From assembly GCF_027474825.1 (NCBI RefSeq), contig NZ_CP107030.1:1618529-1682528 (forward strand): DNA of 64,000 nt, written 5' to 3'. Positions 2,892 through 6,476 of this stretch are shown one piece after another. The notes beneath the pieces are model-generated. The model saw nothing but the letters and a program-made list of their open reading frames with translations. It was not told where the DNA came from and made no database searches. The first letter of the stretch is position 1. Each line of letters begins with the position of its first letter. The translations under genes and the position numbers were made by a program. The stretch is from Maribacter halichondriae (GTDB taxonomy: Bacteria; Bacteroidota; Bacteroidia; Flavobacteriales; Flavobacteriaceae).

Positions 2892-4790
2892 ATGAGTGAT
2901 GCCATTAAACATGAATGCGGTATATCGGTAATACGATTGTTAAAACCCTTGGAATACTATAAGAAAAAGTATGGTACGGCTTTTTATGGTGTCAACAAGA
3001 TGTACCTTATGATGGAGAAACAACACAACCGTGGCCAAGACGGTGCGGGTTTCGCCAGCATCAAGTTGGATATGGCTCCTGGGGAACGTTTTATGAGCCG
3101 TGTACGCTCTATAGAACAGCAGCCTATTCAAGATATTTTCGCACAGATCAATGACCGGATAAACACCACTTTGAAAGAGCATCCCGAATATGTGAACGAT
3201 GTTGCTCTTCAGAAAAAACACATTCCTTATATAGGCGAGGTTTTACTAGGTCATGTGAGATATGGCACCTTCGGCAAAAACAGTATGGAGAGCGTACACC
3301 CGTTTCTTCGTCAGAACAATTGGATGCACCGAAACCTTATCGTTGCCGGAAACTTCAACATGACCAATGTCCATGAGCTTTTCGACAACCTAATACAATT
3401 AGGACAGCATCCTAAGGATATGGTCGATACGGTGACCGTCATGGAAAAAATAGGCCATTTTCTAGACGATGCCGTTGCAAAACTCTACAAGAAGATTAAA
3501 AAAGAAGGATATACCAAACAAGAGGCATCCCCTCTTATTGCCGAACGTATCAAAGTTTCAAAAATACTAAGAAGAGCAGCCAAGAATTTTGATGGAGGCT
3601 ATGCCATGGCAGGCCTATTTGGCCACGGAGATGCCTTTGTGCTTCGTGATCCTTCCGGCATCCGACCCGCATATTACTATCAAGATGACGAGGTCGTGGT
3701 AATGGCTTCGGAAAGACCTGCGATCCAAACCGTATTCAATGTTAAATATGAGGAGGTCAAGGAACTGGATCCCGGCCATGCCATCATTGTCAAAAAGAAC
3801 GGAGACGTTTTCCTTGAGGAAATATTGGAACCTAGGGAGCGTAAGGCCTGTTCTTTTGAGCGTATTTATTTTTCTAGGGGAAGTGACCAAGAAATCTACC
3901 AAGAGCGAAAAGAATTAGGGAAGCTGATCTTCCCCCAAATATTGGAATCCATAAATCATGATATCAAGAATACGGTCTTTTCCTATATTCCGAATACGGC
4001 CGAGACTTCGTTCTACGGTATGGTCAAAGAGGCCCAAAACTATTTGAACAAAAAGAAAGAAGAACAGATTCTTACCATTGGGGCAAAGATTACCAGCAAG
4101 GAACTTCACGAGATCTTGGAGATTCGCCCTAGAATCGAAAAAGTCGCCATAAAGGATGCCAAGCTAAGAACCTTTATAACGCAAGACAGTAGTAGAGACG
4201 ATTTGGTAGCGCATGTTTATGACATCTCATACGGATCTGTTGAAAAAGGTGACAATCTCGTCATTATTGACGATAGTATAGTTAGGGGAACCACATTGAA
4301 AAAGAGTATTTTAAGAATTCTGGATAGACTTTCCCCAAGCAAAATAATAGTGGTTTCTTCTGCACCCCAGATCCGTTACCCAGATTGCTATGGTATAGAC
4401 ATGGCCAAGCTTGAGGATTTTATAGCCTTTAAGGCAGCACTAGCCTTACACCAAGAACGTCTGACCATGAATTTGGTCGATGACATCTATGAAAAGTGTT
4501 TACAACAGGTCGATACCAAAGATCAAGATGTTATCAACTATGTCAAGGAGTTCTATGCGCCTTTTACAGCTGAAGAAATTTCCCAGAAAATTGGCGAACT
4601 CTTGAGTCCCAATGATATTAAGGCCGAAGTTCAAATCATCTATCAAACCGTCGAAAATTTACATCTTGCTTGCCCTAAAAATCTTGGTGATTGGTATTTT
4701 ACAGGAGATTACCCCACTCCTGGTGGAAATCGAGTCGTAAACCGGGCATTTATCAACTTTTTTGAGGGCAAAAATGAAAGGGCCTATTGA
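2892..4790 (+). CDS. purF: Amidophosphoribosyltransferase, long form
   Basis: PurF transfers glutamine-derived ammonia to PRPP, the committed step of purine synthesis. Cys9 (MSDAIKHEC-G) is the expected N-terminal nucleophile of the glutaminase domain after processing, and HNRGQDGAG follows. The PRPP loop is VIIDDSIVRGTTL near residue 455. At 632 residues it is about 125 longer than the E. coli enzyme. The extra length includes an insert in the glutaminase half and a C-terminal extension ending in FEGKNERAY, a form I recognise as usual in flavobacteria. It is 46 bp downstream of the kinase gene and behind its terminator. Confidence 0.95.
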   Translation: MSDAIKHECGISVIRLLKPLEYYKKKYGTAFYGVNKMYLMMEKQHNRGQDGAGFASIKLDMAPGERFMSRVRSIEQQPIQDIFAQINDRINTTLKEHPEYVNDVALQKKHIPYIGEVLLGHVRYGTFGKNSMESVHPFLRQNNWMHRNLIVAGNFNMTNVHELFDNLIQLGQHPKDMVDTVTVMEKIGHFLDDAVAKLYKKIKKEGYTKQEASPLIAERIKVSKILRRAAKNFDGGYAMAGLFGHGDAFVLRDPSGIRPAYYYQDDEVVVMASERPAIQTVFNVKYEEVKELDPGHAIIVKKNGDVFLEEILEPRERKACSFERIYFSRGSDQEIYQERKELGKLIFPQILESINHDIKNTVFSYIPNTAETSFYGMVKEAQNYLNKKKEEQILTIGAKITSKELHEILEIRPRIEKVAIKDAKLRTFITQDSSRDDLVAHVYDISYGSVEKGDNLVIIDDSIVRGTTLKKSILRILDRLSPSKIIVVSSAPQIRYPDCYGIDMAKLEDFIAFKAALALHQERLTMNLVDDIYEKCLQQVDTKDQDVINYVKEFYAPFTAEEISQKIGELLSPNDIKAEVQIIYQTVENLHLACPKNLGDWYFTGDYPTPGGNRVVNRAFINFFEGKNERAY

Positions 4791-4797
4791 GATTAAA

Positions 4798-4835
4798 TAT
4801 CGATGAAATACAACATTTTATGTAGTTCGTCGATA
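4798..4835 (+). other. Stable hairpin in the purF 3' region
   Basis: TATCGATGAA (4798-4807) pairs with TTCGTCGATA (4826-4835), with one G:U pair. Inside it TACA pairs with TGTA. There is no U tract, so it is not a standard terminator. It begins 8 nt after the purF stop and is followed by a second small palindrome, CGATA-AA-TATCG at 4831-4842. It may stabilise the mRNA 3' end. Confidence 0.45.
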
Positions 4836-4866
4836 AATATCGTTGTTCATCGGTATTATAGCCTCT

Positions 4867-4896
4867 TTGGCGATCCGCCCGACTATTTTAGACTTG
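4867..4896 (+). promoter_or_regulatory. Promoter of small RNA copy 1
   Basis: TTG at 4867-4869 and TAGACTTG at 4889-4896 are separated by 19 bp, the spacing expected for the Bacteroidota primary sigma factor. The -7 box has one mismatch to TAnnTTTG. The RNA core begins directly after it. Confidence 0.6.
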
Positions 4897-4967
4897 CCAT
4901 AGCATAAGTAGGTTAAGTTCATGGTAAGATTTGGGGCAAAAAAGGTGGAGACTTCTCCACCTTTTTT
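4897..4967 (+). ncRNA. Tandem small RNA, copy 1
   Basis: This copy consists of a ~40-nt core that opens with CCATAGCATAAGTAGG and closes with ATGGTAAGATTTGGGG, then a terminator stem GGTGGAGA/TCTCCACC and six T. The core is almost identical in four places between purF and sodA. The flanking spacers share no similarity. CCAT at the start can pair with ATGG near the end of the core. The combination of promoter box, conserved core and terminator argues for a discrete ~70-nt transcript. I do not recognise the family; a check against Rfam flavobacterial motifs such as Flavo-1 would settle whether it is known. Confidence 0.75.
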
Positions 4968-5108
4968 ATTTGGACACAGGGCCATCTCTTTTTTTGATTA
5001 AAGCTAAAATACTATAGGTCTCTTACTTTACATTTTCATTCATTAAGTCACTTCACCCTATTTATGGACCTTTTAACAAAGATGTTTTACCAGCGTATAA
5101 GCTAGCAG

Positions 5109-5116
5109 TATATTTG
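5109..5116 (+). promoter_or_regulatory. -7 box of small RNA copy 2
   Basis: TATATTTG is an exact TAnnTTTG match; a TTTT at 5085-5088 lies 20 bp upstream at the -33 position. The copy 2 core begins five bases further on. Confidence 0.6.
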
Positions 5117-5121
5117 GAGAA

Positions 5122-5190
5122 CCATAGCATAAGTAGGTTAAGTTCATGGTAAGATTTGGGGAAAAAGGCGGAGCATTGCTCCGCCTTTTT
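5122..5190 (+). ncRNA. Tandem small RNA, copy 2
   Basis: The core is identical to copy 1 over its first 40 bases. The terminator stem is GGCGGAGC/GCTCCGCC, so both arms differ from copy 1 in a base-pair-preserving way, followed by five T. Copies 2 and 3 share a GAGAA leader between the -7 box and the core that copies 1 and 4 lack. Confidence 0.75.
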
Positions 5191-5507
5191 ATTTATCATG
5201 AATTCCACAAACCCCATTCTTTGAACTTTTAATGCTGTTGAACTCATCCTGAGTCATTATTTTACCTGTTGGCGCTAGATAACAAGTAGACCCTTTTTTC
5301 AACTACTACTATTTTTAGGTAATGATAGTGTCGAAGAAAACGATGATACTGATTTTCTAAGCTATATTCTCAATACTATATGTATTCTATTCGCTTGACA
5401 TTGTATCATTTTTCTGTACGCTTTATAGGACAATAACCTTGAAAACGCACTTTAACCGTATATATGGATTTTCGTCTAAAACATTTCTCCATAGCCCTTT
5501 GAAGGTC

Positions 5508-5515
5508 TATTTTTG
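5508..5515 (+). promoter_or_regulatory. -7 box of small RNA copy 3
   Basis: TATTTTTG is an exact TAnnTTTG match followed by the same GAGAA leader as copy 2. The -33 position 20 bp upstream has TTT rather than TTG. Confidence 0.55.
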
Positions 5516-5520
5516 GAGAA

Positions 5521-5590
5521 CCATAGCATAAGTAGGTTAAGTTCATGGTAAGATTTGGGGAAAAAGGCGGAGCAATGCTCCGCCTTTTTT
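5521..5590 (+). ncRNA. Tandem small RNA, copy 3
   Basis: This is the same core and the same terminator stem sequence as copy 2, differing only in the loop (AA against AT), and it ends in six T. The 330-bp spacer between copies 2 and 3 contains no credible gene. Confidence 0.75.
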
Positions 5591-5727
5591 ATTTGCGTGA
5601 AACCCAAGCATTTAACAAGGTTAACCCCACTTCTTGCTTTCTTTAGGGCTTTTATTTATACCCAAACACTATTAAAATTTCTTAAAATTTCTTTTTTATT
5701 TCCCACAATACCAGTAATTTAGTATTG

Positions 5728-5798
5728 CCATAGCATAAGTAGGTTAAGTTTATGGTAAGATTTGGGACGAAAAGGGTGGAGACTTCTCCGCCCTTTTC
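5728..5798 (+). ncRNA. Tandem small RNA, copy 4
   Basis: The core differs from the others by one base (GTTTATGG for GTTCATGG) outside the CCAT/ATGG pairing. The terminator GGGTGGAGA/TCTCCGCCC keeps all nine pairs, one as G:U. The -7 box is TAGTATTG at 5720-5727, directly abutting the core as in copy 1. Confidence 0.72.
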
Positions 5799-5813
5799 TA
5801 TTTTAAGAAACCA

Positions 5814-5867: not shown

Positions 5868-6476
5868 TTATTTGCCGGCCGCATAAAGCTCGGCAACCTT
5901 ATCCCAATTGATAACATTGAAAAACGCGTTCACATAATCAGGGCGTCTGTTTTGATAGTTCAGATAATAGGCATGCTCCCAAACATCCAACCCTAAAATT
6001 GGGTGACCTCCGCAGCCTGTATTCGGCATCAACGAATTATCTTGGTTGGGCGTAGAACAAATATCTACTTTACCCCCTGGGTGCACACATAACCATGCCC
6101 AGCCCGATCCAAATCTCGACCCGGCCGCTGCACTGAATTTCTCCTTAAACGTTTCGAAAGACCCAAAAGCATGGTTGATGGCGTCGGCCAATTCTCCTGA
6201 AGGAGTTCCGCCACCATTGGGAGACATTACTTCCCAAAACAATTTATGGTTGTAGAACCCGCCCCCGTTATTACGGACAGCACTGTTCGACATGTCAAGA
6301 TTCTTTAATATATCTTCGATGGTCTTTCCTTCAAGATCCGTGCCTTCGATAGCCGCGTTCAATTTTGTGGTATAGCCATTATGATGTTTGGTATGGTGAA
6401 TCTCCATGGTGCGGGCATCGATATGTGGTTCCAGTGCATCATAGGCATAGGGTAATTTAGGTAGTTCAAAAGCCAT
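5868..6476 (-). CDS. sodA: Superoxide dismutase, Fe/Mn family
   Basis: The 202-residue cytoplasmic enzyme dismutates superoxide. The four metal ligands can be placed: His27 in EIHHTKHH, a histidine in [11 protein letters not shown], and Asp and His in [15 protein letters not shown] and NYQNRRPDY are also family signatures. Metal preference (Fe, Mn or cambialistic) cannot be decided by eye. The gene is alone on the minus strand, diverges from the helicase gene and has a TAnnTTTG box upstream. Confidence 0.96.

Follow-up and report, generated by a model that had tools for sequence, protein, structure and literature searches.

A putative multicopy small RNA between purF and sodA in Flavobacteriaceae, with predicted translation-start targets and antisense partners

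A 39-nt sequence occurs four times between two convergent genes in the window analyzed here, a 64,000-nt stretch of the Maribacter halichondriae genome, and the question raised by this locus is whether the repeats are RNA genes and, if they are, what such RNAs would act upon. The reading that we favor, at a probability of roughly 0.77, is that they encode a multicopy, trans-acting small RNA (sRNA) of the Flavobacteriaceae, which would block translation initiation and be titrated by antisense partners. The array lies between an upstream gene at 2892-4790 on the plus strand and a convergent downstream gene at 5868-6476 on the minus strand, both conserved neighbors recognized by open reading frame and tblastn synteny, which we take to be purF and sodA from the names given in the first-pass annotation. 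The core copies begin at 4897, 5122, 5521 and 5728 on the plus strand, with aligned start-to-start spacings of 225, 399 and 207. Copies 1-3 are identical and copy 4 differs by one C-to-T change, in keeping with the earlier description of a core of about 40 nt in three identical copies and one with a single change. A search of the window's own 4.53-Mb genome that allowed up to 3 mismatches returned no further core copy, and no match at all to the reversed control pattern.

Each unit of approximately 72 nt, at 4897-4969, 5121-5194, 5520-5593 and 5728-5802 on the plus strand, folds into three parts: a 5' hairpin that CCAT/ATGG closes, a linker that stays open around AAGATTTGGGG, and a strong terminator hairpin, which lies at 4938-4967, 5162-5190, 5561-5589 and 5769-5798 in copies 1 to 4, respectively. 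The folding z-scores of the four units range from -3.4 to -5.7, with 0 of 200 shuffles of each folding as well, and the previously proposed self-closure of the core through CCAT/ATGG held for all four. The claim that every copy has its own terminator held likewise, based on an inverted repeat and then a T-rich run 3' of each copy, with only copies 2 and 4 being flagged by a simple terminator scanner. A scan for sigma-70-type promoters returned 6 matches against 3.8 expected, which is uninformative either way for this phylum. What is expected of a multicopy sRNA, namely several near-identical units each with a promoter and a terminator, is met, with both of these elements judged by sequence only. 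No two-sided pair change was found in the hairpin within the alignment because the core is nearly invariant. The terminator drawn by RNAalifold on alignment A1 was wrong owing to gaps and was discarded; the covariance model still finds the family.

The sRNA was matched by this covariance model in 121 of 149 genomes, taken as one genome per genus of the window's family, which was inferred from the named loci to be the Flavobacteriaceae. BLAST with one unit matched 27 of 60 genomes, the window's own included, all of the same family as the window; the draw also contained 23 genomes from other families, none of which was matched. An order-wide draw gave 17 positives among 148 genomes, all Flavobacteriaceae, with at least 4 genomes of that family negative. 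At least 118 stretches with the sRNA were recovered by a scan of named genomes, spanning genera that include Zobellia, Maribacter, Flavobacterium, Aquimarina, Winogradskyella, Robiginitalea and Formosa. By tblastn synteny, purF lies upstream and sodA downstream in 81 of the 118 named loci, while in the remainder one or both genes were unseen, often since the stretch ended. Across 119 loci including the window, we counted one copy at 58 loci, two at 24, three at 19, four at 12, five at 5 and six at 1, all of which are lower bounds set by the limits of the stretches and the exact pattern used. When 15 weak-scoring matches were read, 13 proved to be clear diverged members, in which the closing stem is retained and the linker only slightly altered; the loop is kept in 12 of these 13 (L231 is the exception). 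The matches L232 and L233 were unconvincing as members, the latter coming from the one other-family genome that was matched under looser filters (E 0.03) and not being member-like. Apparent extra copies outside the main array were seen in G007, G008, G009, G016, G026, G119 and G145; those on another contig may reflect an assembly break.

The absence of the core from all related genomes would have refuted the first-pass annotation; the core was looked for and is present, and the suggestion of selection on the transcript is supported by the core in 121 of 149 genera, the shared purF-sodA gap and the promoter types kept by position. Because the core is conserved, the gap is shared and the promoter types hold their positions across genera, we consider it likely that the four units are separate small transcription units under selection, an inference made from sequence alone and without transcript data. 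As a separate observation, fragments corresponding to the 3' half of the core, the half that ends GGTAAGATTTGGG, border a long conserved hairpin at G000:C1:361046, 1062357 and 3191632 and at L169 and L184-L187. These fragments sit near genes that by eye are relaxase-, integrase- or HipA-like; one has a tRNA in its vicinity and another a tmRNA some 1.5 kb away. Such sites are possibly the end of a mobile element or an att-like site.

The four copies do not share a single promoter type. A TAnnTTTG-like box had been claimed before every copy, and this held in part: it fits copies 2 (TATATTTG, 5109-5116) and 3 (TATTTTTG, 5508-5515), both on the plus strand, whereas the corresponding -7-like box is TATTTTAG in copy 1 (4884-4891, plus strand), with similar boxes before first copies elsewhere, and TAATTTAG in copy 4. 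Farther upstream on the plus strand, copies 1 to 3 each carry a tandem operator of two boxes. That of copy 1 (4825-4856) consists of GTTCGTCGATAA at 4825-4836 and GTTCATCGGTAT at 4845-4856, 20 bp apart (score 21.2, match start 4821); that of copy 2 (5051-5082) has boxes at 5051-5062 and 5071-5082 (score 19.5, match start 5047); and that of copy 3 (5450-5481) has boxes at 5450-5461 and 5470-5481 (score 28.1, match start 5446). The highest score of the operator matrix among 588,000 shuffled positions was 20.4, which exceeds that of copy 2. Copy 4 is preceded instead by a distinct promoter, designated class C, at 5690-5723 on the plus strand, which contains CACAATACCAGTAATTTAGT.

Both arrangements recur among the 238 copies for which 130 upstream bases were available; 38 belong to class C and 200 do not. 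The class C promoter with CACAATACCAGTAATTTAGT precedes its 38 copies at 37 of 119 loci, all of them multicopy arrays, and 37 of the 38 copies are last in their array, the remaining one being next to last (L086). A box TTYRTC.AA lies at approximately -51 from the core in 181 of the 200 other copies; a second box was sought 15-27 bp farther upstream, and the best one lies at exactly 20 bp in 162 of these 181, at 21 bp in 12 and elsewhere in 6, and is absent in 1. Since there are two promoter types, with class C kept for the last copy, near-identical RNAs likely are read out under two separate inputs, though no transcript data support this as yet. As larger arrays keep a different promoter for their last copy, the additive action mentioned earlier for multicopy sRNAs of other bacteria probably does not apply here in its simple form. 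In some first copies (e.g., L109 and L132), the proximal box region is a perfect palindrome, TTTCATCGATGAAA, and a second binding mode is conceivable. The window also contains an operator-like match on the minus strand at 389-426 (score 16.9), upstream of an acyl-carrier-protein-like open reading frame at 111-344; about 0.4 such matches are expected by chance. A scan of five genomes with an operator pattern was noisy (27 matches versus 18 for the control in the window's own genome), yet it led to the locus, L285, with which the account of predicted targets begins.

At L285, in the window's own genome, an operator (score 19.0) accompanies complements to both the linker and the loop of the sRNA at a start codon. 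A strict two-part pattern, built after this locus had been seen, gave 23 matches in the 149 genomes, L285 itself among them, against 6 for the reversed control (binomial 0.002), and these fall in 19 of 149 genera. Seven of the 23 sites are in partner RNAs: two in non-coding units and five in microprotein-type units, although for one of these five, L290/L343, no open reading frame was read. Among the 16 mRNA sites, 14 have, at -30 to +10 nt, the start of an open reading frame no shorter than 60 aa, which is true of 2.5% of random positions taken from these loci; of the remaining two, one belongs to a short open reading frame (L280) and one to an open reading frame whose likely start was missed by the caller (L295). 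Most of the products begin, by eye, like signal-peptide or lipoprotein precursors, and the domains found comprise T9SS sorting, CAP, DUF5060 and cadherin-like/beta-helix domains, while several products, including that of L285, have no domain match. Homologous targets recur across genera by blastp (L277/L296, 46% identity; L284/L289, 44%; L279/L286, 32%; L275/L337, 43%), as does the set L288/L295/L334, in which L288 and L295 share 61% identity over 215 aa. Operators on the same strand precede targets only at L285, L288 and L291. The purine-rich single strand described earlier is not the only likely pairing part, because the loop AAGUAGGUUAA and the linker GAUUUGGGG both have matched target sites.

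A relaxed pattern applied to 20 array-rich genomes found 38 sites outside the arrays versus 3 for the control. Sorted by reading, or in two cases by the printed match alone, these comprise 20 start-codon sites (TTG starts and one at +36 included), one site in a non-coding partner and 17 that look like coding or unrelated sequence. A receiver-containing, kinase-like target with a TTG start is present in G000, G013, G020 and G145, its N-terminus being conserved from the TTG, and the same type appears, by printed match alone, in G001 and G002. The kinase-like target L332 (G154) had been grouped with L328; blastp did not support this (E 0.72) and the grouping was dropped. A one-part search of the window's own genome (13-mer, one mismatch) was too blunt, giving 14 matches versus 5 for the control, of which the 8 exact matches are the array, the antisense RNA and the mobile-linked fragments, leaving 6 one-mismatch sites against 5.

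The predicted antisense RNA of the window's own genome, traced from a weak match elsewhere in that genome, corresponds to a separate unit on the other strand at G000:C1:515205-515336 and belongs to what we term partner 1. This apparently non-coding unit is built from a conserved upstream box, a -7-like box, approximately 35 nt complementary to the sRNA core and a terminator. Its sequence model matched 24 of 149 genomes at E<=1e-3, of which 19, including the window's own, were kept at E<=1e-10; the weak matches were set aside, many being merely the reverse complement of sRNA arrays, and one of them (7e-4) is in the sRNA-negative genome G035. Duplex energies range from -28.2 to -46.5 kcal/mol for sites in 18 of the 19 loci (none was obtained from L203), and five sites (L198, L204, L205, L208 and L209; -28.2 to -31.5 kcal/mol) fall short of the -32.1 that marks the best 0.1% of random windows. 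One genome carries partner 1 in four tandem copies. All 19 partner 1 genera have at least 3 sRNA copies, a number also reached in 20 of the 102 other sRNA-positive genera. A separate unit complementary to the sRNA seed, which is what a QrrX-like sponge requires, is thus present in 19 genera at E<=1e-10, and partner 1 is best read as a sponge for the sRNA, with both its transcription and the sponging being inferred. L281 (G145), L292 (G003) and L268 (G028) show yet another RNA type, the third, which is non-coding and combines sites complementary to the linker with a AACCTACTT site and a terminator; its operator is a weak match at L281 (13.7) and a box seen by eye only at L292 and L268.

Partner 2 is a unit that adjoins genes which, named by eye from their translations, encode a CoA-transferase-like protein and an ABC transporter. 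The model of this unit matched 70 of 149 genomes, 54 of them at E<=1e-10, and the unit contains one or more sRNA-complementary sites, together with an operator of the sRNA-promoter kind in 5 of 5 units scored. The RNA was initially regarded as a multi-site decoy, an idea dropped after reading of the frames revealed a conserved open reading frame for a microprotein of about 41 aa (read in 37 of 42 genera examined), and it is therefore taken as an mRNA that may also titrate. The microprotein had no Pfam match (one sequence scanned) and no NCBIfam match (two scanned). Its C-terminal part has pS 0.60 and pN 0.16, whereas the sRNA-pairing part has pS 0.25 over the same 196 sequence pairs; for all 666 pairs, pS is 0.67 and 0.35, respectively. 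These pairs are not independent. We infer that the C-terminal part evolves as protein; its helix is amphipathic with no clear membrane span. In G008, the local sRNA and the microprotein start region form 27 contiguous pairs (-48.8 kcal/mol), and the best pairing in G016 and G159 is -32 to -36 kcal/mol. The diverged local sRNA of G017 reaches only -27.4 with its own microprotein mRNA, compared to -35 to -38 kcal/mol for the usual sRNA, which speaks against tight co-evolution there. The microprotein mRNA may be a strong target, a titrator or both.

Taken over the family, a strong match to either partner occurs in 73 of 121 sRNA-bearing genera and in 0 of 28 without the sRNA (Fisher 4e-10), though we acknowledge that this test ignores phylogeny among the genera and that the E cut was our choice. 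The two kinds never co-occur among strong matches (G111 combines a strong partner 1 match with a weak partner 2 match), and 48 of the 121 sRNA-bearing genera have no strong match to either. The form of the linker mostly matches that of the partner, GGTAAGATTTGGG occurring with CCCAAATCTT and GGTAGATTTGGG with CCCAAATCTA; this correspondence could represent a single change in one clade.

The protein that binds the tandem operator may be a LytTR-type response regulator, but there are no binding data and we lean slightly against this assignment. The arrangement expected of such an operator, tandem direct repeats upstream of a promoter, is met, with the 20-bp period in 162 of 181 copies, and is like that of HdrR, AgrA and other LytTR operators, whose repeats also lie just upstream of the promoter. 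LytTR-family 9-bp repeats are mostly 12 bp apart, with a minority at 11 or 13 (PMC6193735), so the 20-bp period fits a minority spacing, the majority being 21; the LRS-like repeats of Bacteroides are 11 bp with 11 bp between (PMC6193735). The box sequence is unlike the LytTR boxes tabulated in PMC6193735. It may be similar to the AlgR box. A candidate LytTR regulator, approximately 95% identical among three genomes (L397, L400 and L404), sits behind a matching operator in L397 (score 17.3), while in L400 and L404 the boxes were seen by eye only (score <10). Among 30 LytTR loci, 4 matches above 10 is about what shuffles give, and one shuffled position beat the 17.3 of L397. Between the sRNA and this candidate's 5' UTR, the pairing energy (-17.0 to -18.3 kcal/mol) is near the random median (-15.9), and a site farther upstream (-24.7 to -26.0 kcal/mol) falls within the best 5% and outside the best 1%; neither is claimed.

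These observations can be assembled into a proposed mechanism. The elements of the circuit that are shown are its sequence, conservation, synteny, complementarity, operator spacing and start-codon enrichment. Each unit would make an RNA of approximately 72 nt, with a single-stranded linker between its 5' hairpin and its terminator. Target mRNAs would present, around their start codons, a two-part site, CCCAAAUC...AACCUACUU, to which the loop AAGUAGGUUAA and linker GAUUUGGGG would pair, thereby hindering translation initiation; the targets would chiefly encode secreted proteins, lipoproteins and surface proteins exported by type IX secretion. In the array-rich clade, to which the window's own genome belongs, partner 1 would soak up the sRNA through up to about 35 complementary nt; elsewhere in the family, this place would be taken by partner 2, a microprotein mRNA that is complementary to the sRNA in its start region. 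Most sRNA promoters, the examined microprotein promoters and a few targets would be joined by the tandem operator of 20-bp period, with the last copy of larger arrays answering to another input. Transcription, repression, sponging and the identity of the regulator remain inferred, there being no RNA-seq, Northern or protein data. Deletion of Rfp18, another flavobacterial sRNA, lowered target mRNA (PMC9723704), and repression is therefore not the sole possible sign. A bolder reading, which we raise only as a possibility, is that one response regulator drives both a surface-protein-repressing multicopy sRNA and its antisense partner family-wide, with a bifunctional microprotein mRNA titrating the sRNA in many genera and a non-coding sponge replacing it in the array-rich clade, in four tandem copies in one genome.

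Other explanations can be considered. The sRNA might chiefly control the microprotein, as a switch or in the manner of a type I toxin-antitoxin system, with the secreted-protein sites being secondary. This is favored by strong partner 2 matches in 54 genera, all with the sRNA, by the very long start-codon complementarity in some of these, such as G008, and by the operator type shared in the five units scored. However, the partner 2 model has no strong match in the window's own genome or in the 19 partner 1 genera (that of G111 is weak), yet all 19 carry at least three sRNA copies; moreover, the amphipathic helix lacks a clear membrane span, there are no toxicity data, and homologous secreted-protein targets recur between genera. 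We regard this alternative as unlikely. Less likely still is that the units are protein-binding decoys, as RNAs like CsrB and 6S are, with incidental mRNA complementarity. A near-invariant core, several copies and a short, unpaired, purine-rich linker would suit such a role, but two-part sites enriched at start codons and antisense RNAs that co-occur with the sRNA family would be unexpected for a pure protein decoy. Finally, the repeats could be a DNA element, such as an attachment or replication site, rather than RNA genes, a view to which the core 3'-half fragments beside mobile-element-like genes elsewhere in the genus Maribacter lend some weight; it is all but excluded by promoter types, terminators and hairpin being conserved together with synteny.

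The favored reading, a translation-blocking sRNA titrated by antisense partners, bears on a family that depends on secreted and surface proteins, and the sRNA is present in most of the genera tested. Flavobacteriaceae degrade much marine polysaccharide. The first-pass annotation left the function as unknown, and there is now a testable proposal of translation-start targets and antisense partners; since the sRNA comes with predicted targets, a predicted antagonist, a conserved microprotein and a predicted operator, the whole circuit can be tested in laboratory strains that are harmless. The Rfam search that had been suggested gave no family at gathering score in the array region, and a permissive threshold yielded 95 weak matches, the best of them terminator-like (STnc40, sraA and others) and none at gathering score. 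The open-licence PubMed Central literature searched held no title or abstract start naming this sRNA, and one experimental sRNA study in Flavobacteriaceae.

The closest parallels are with three known systems. FopS and GibS of Bacteroides thetaiotaomicron are multicopy sRNAs of approximately 65-70 nt that pair with translation starts, mainly of outer-membrane SusC-like mRNAs (PMC11697453). The array sRNA scores far below membership of either family (19.8 versus a gathering score of 56 bits for FopS, RF04319, and 21.2 versus 115 for GibS, RF04182), though it resembles FopS in being multicopy and in the same phylum, and its predicted sites, judged by sequence with no binding assay, lie at start codons of secreted and surface proteins. 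Binding by the RRM protein RbpB is a further mark of FopS and GibS. The seed of FopS is near its 5' end, whereas both the hairpin loop and the linker of the array sRNA have matched sites, and the array sRNA differs further in having its copies in one tandem array and in the antisense partner RNAs found. In Flavobacterium psychrophilum, deletion of Rfp18 changed the mRNA of two secreted metalloproteases, with an adhesin as a further predicted target (PMC9723704), and in this it is likewise an sRNA of a related genus linked to secreted proteins. Rfp18, however, is described as having three stem-loops and pairing through the third, an architecture not met by the one hairpin and terminator of the array sRNA, and the main text of PMC9723704 makes no mention of purF or sodA. 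Qrr1-4 of Vibrio cholerae are inactivated by QrrX, an antisense RNA that has a gene of its own, a terminator at its end and a conserved promoter element (PMC9732341), and this pairing of a multicopy sRNA with an antisense sponge would be mirrored by the array sRNA and partner 1. QrrX was found through Hfq, whereas the array sRNA is not known to involve Hfq, and, unlike QrrX, the second partner of the array sRNA encodes a protein. What appears to be new here, as inferred from sequence alone, is the combination of two promoter types, two antisense partners and two-part target sites at start codons.
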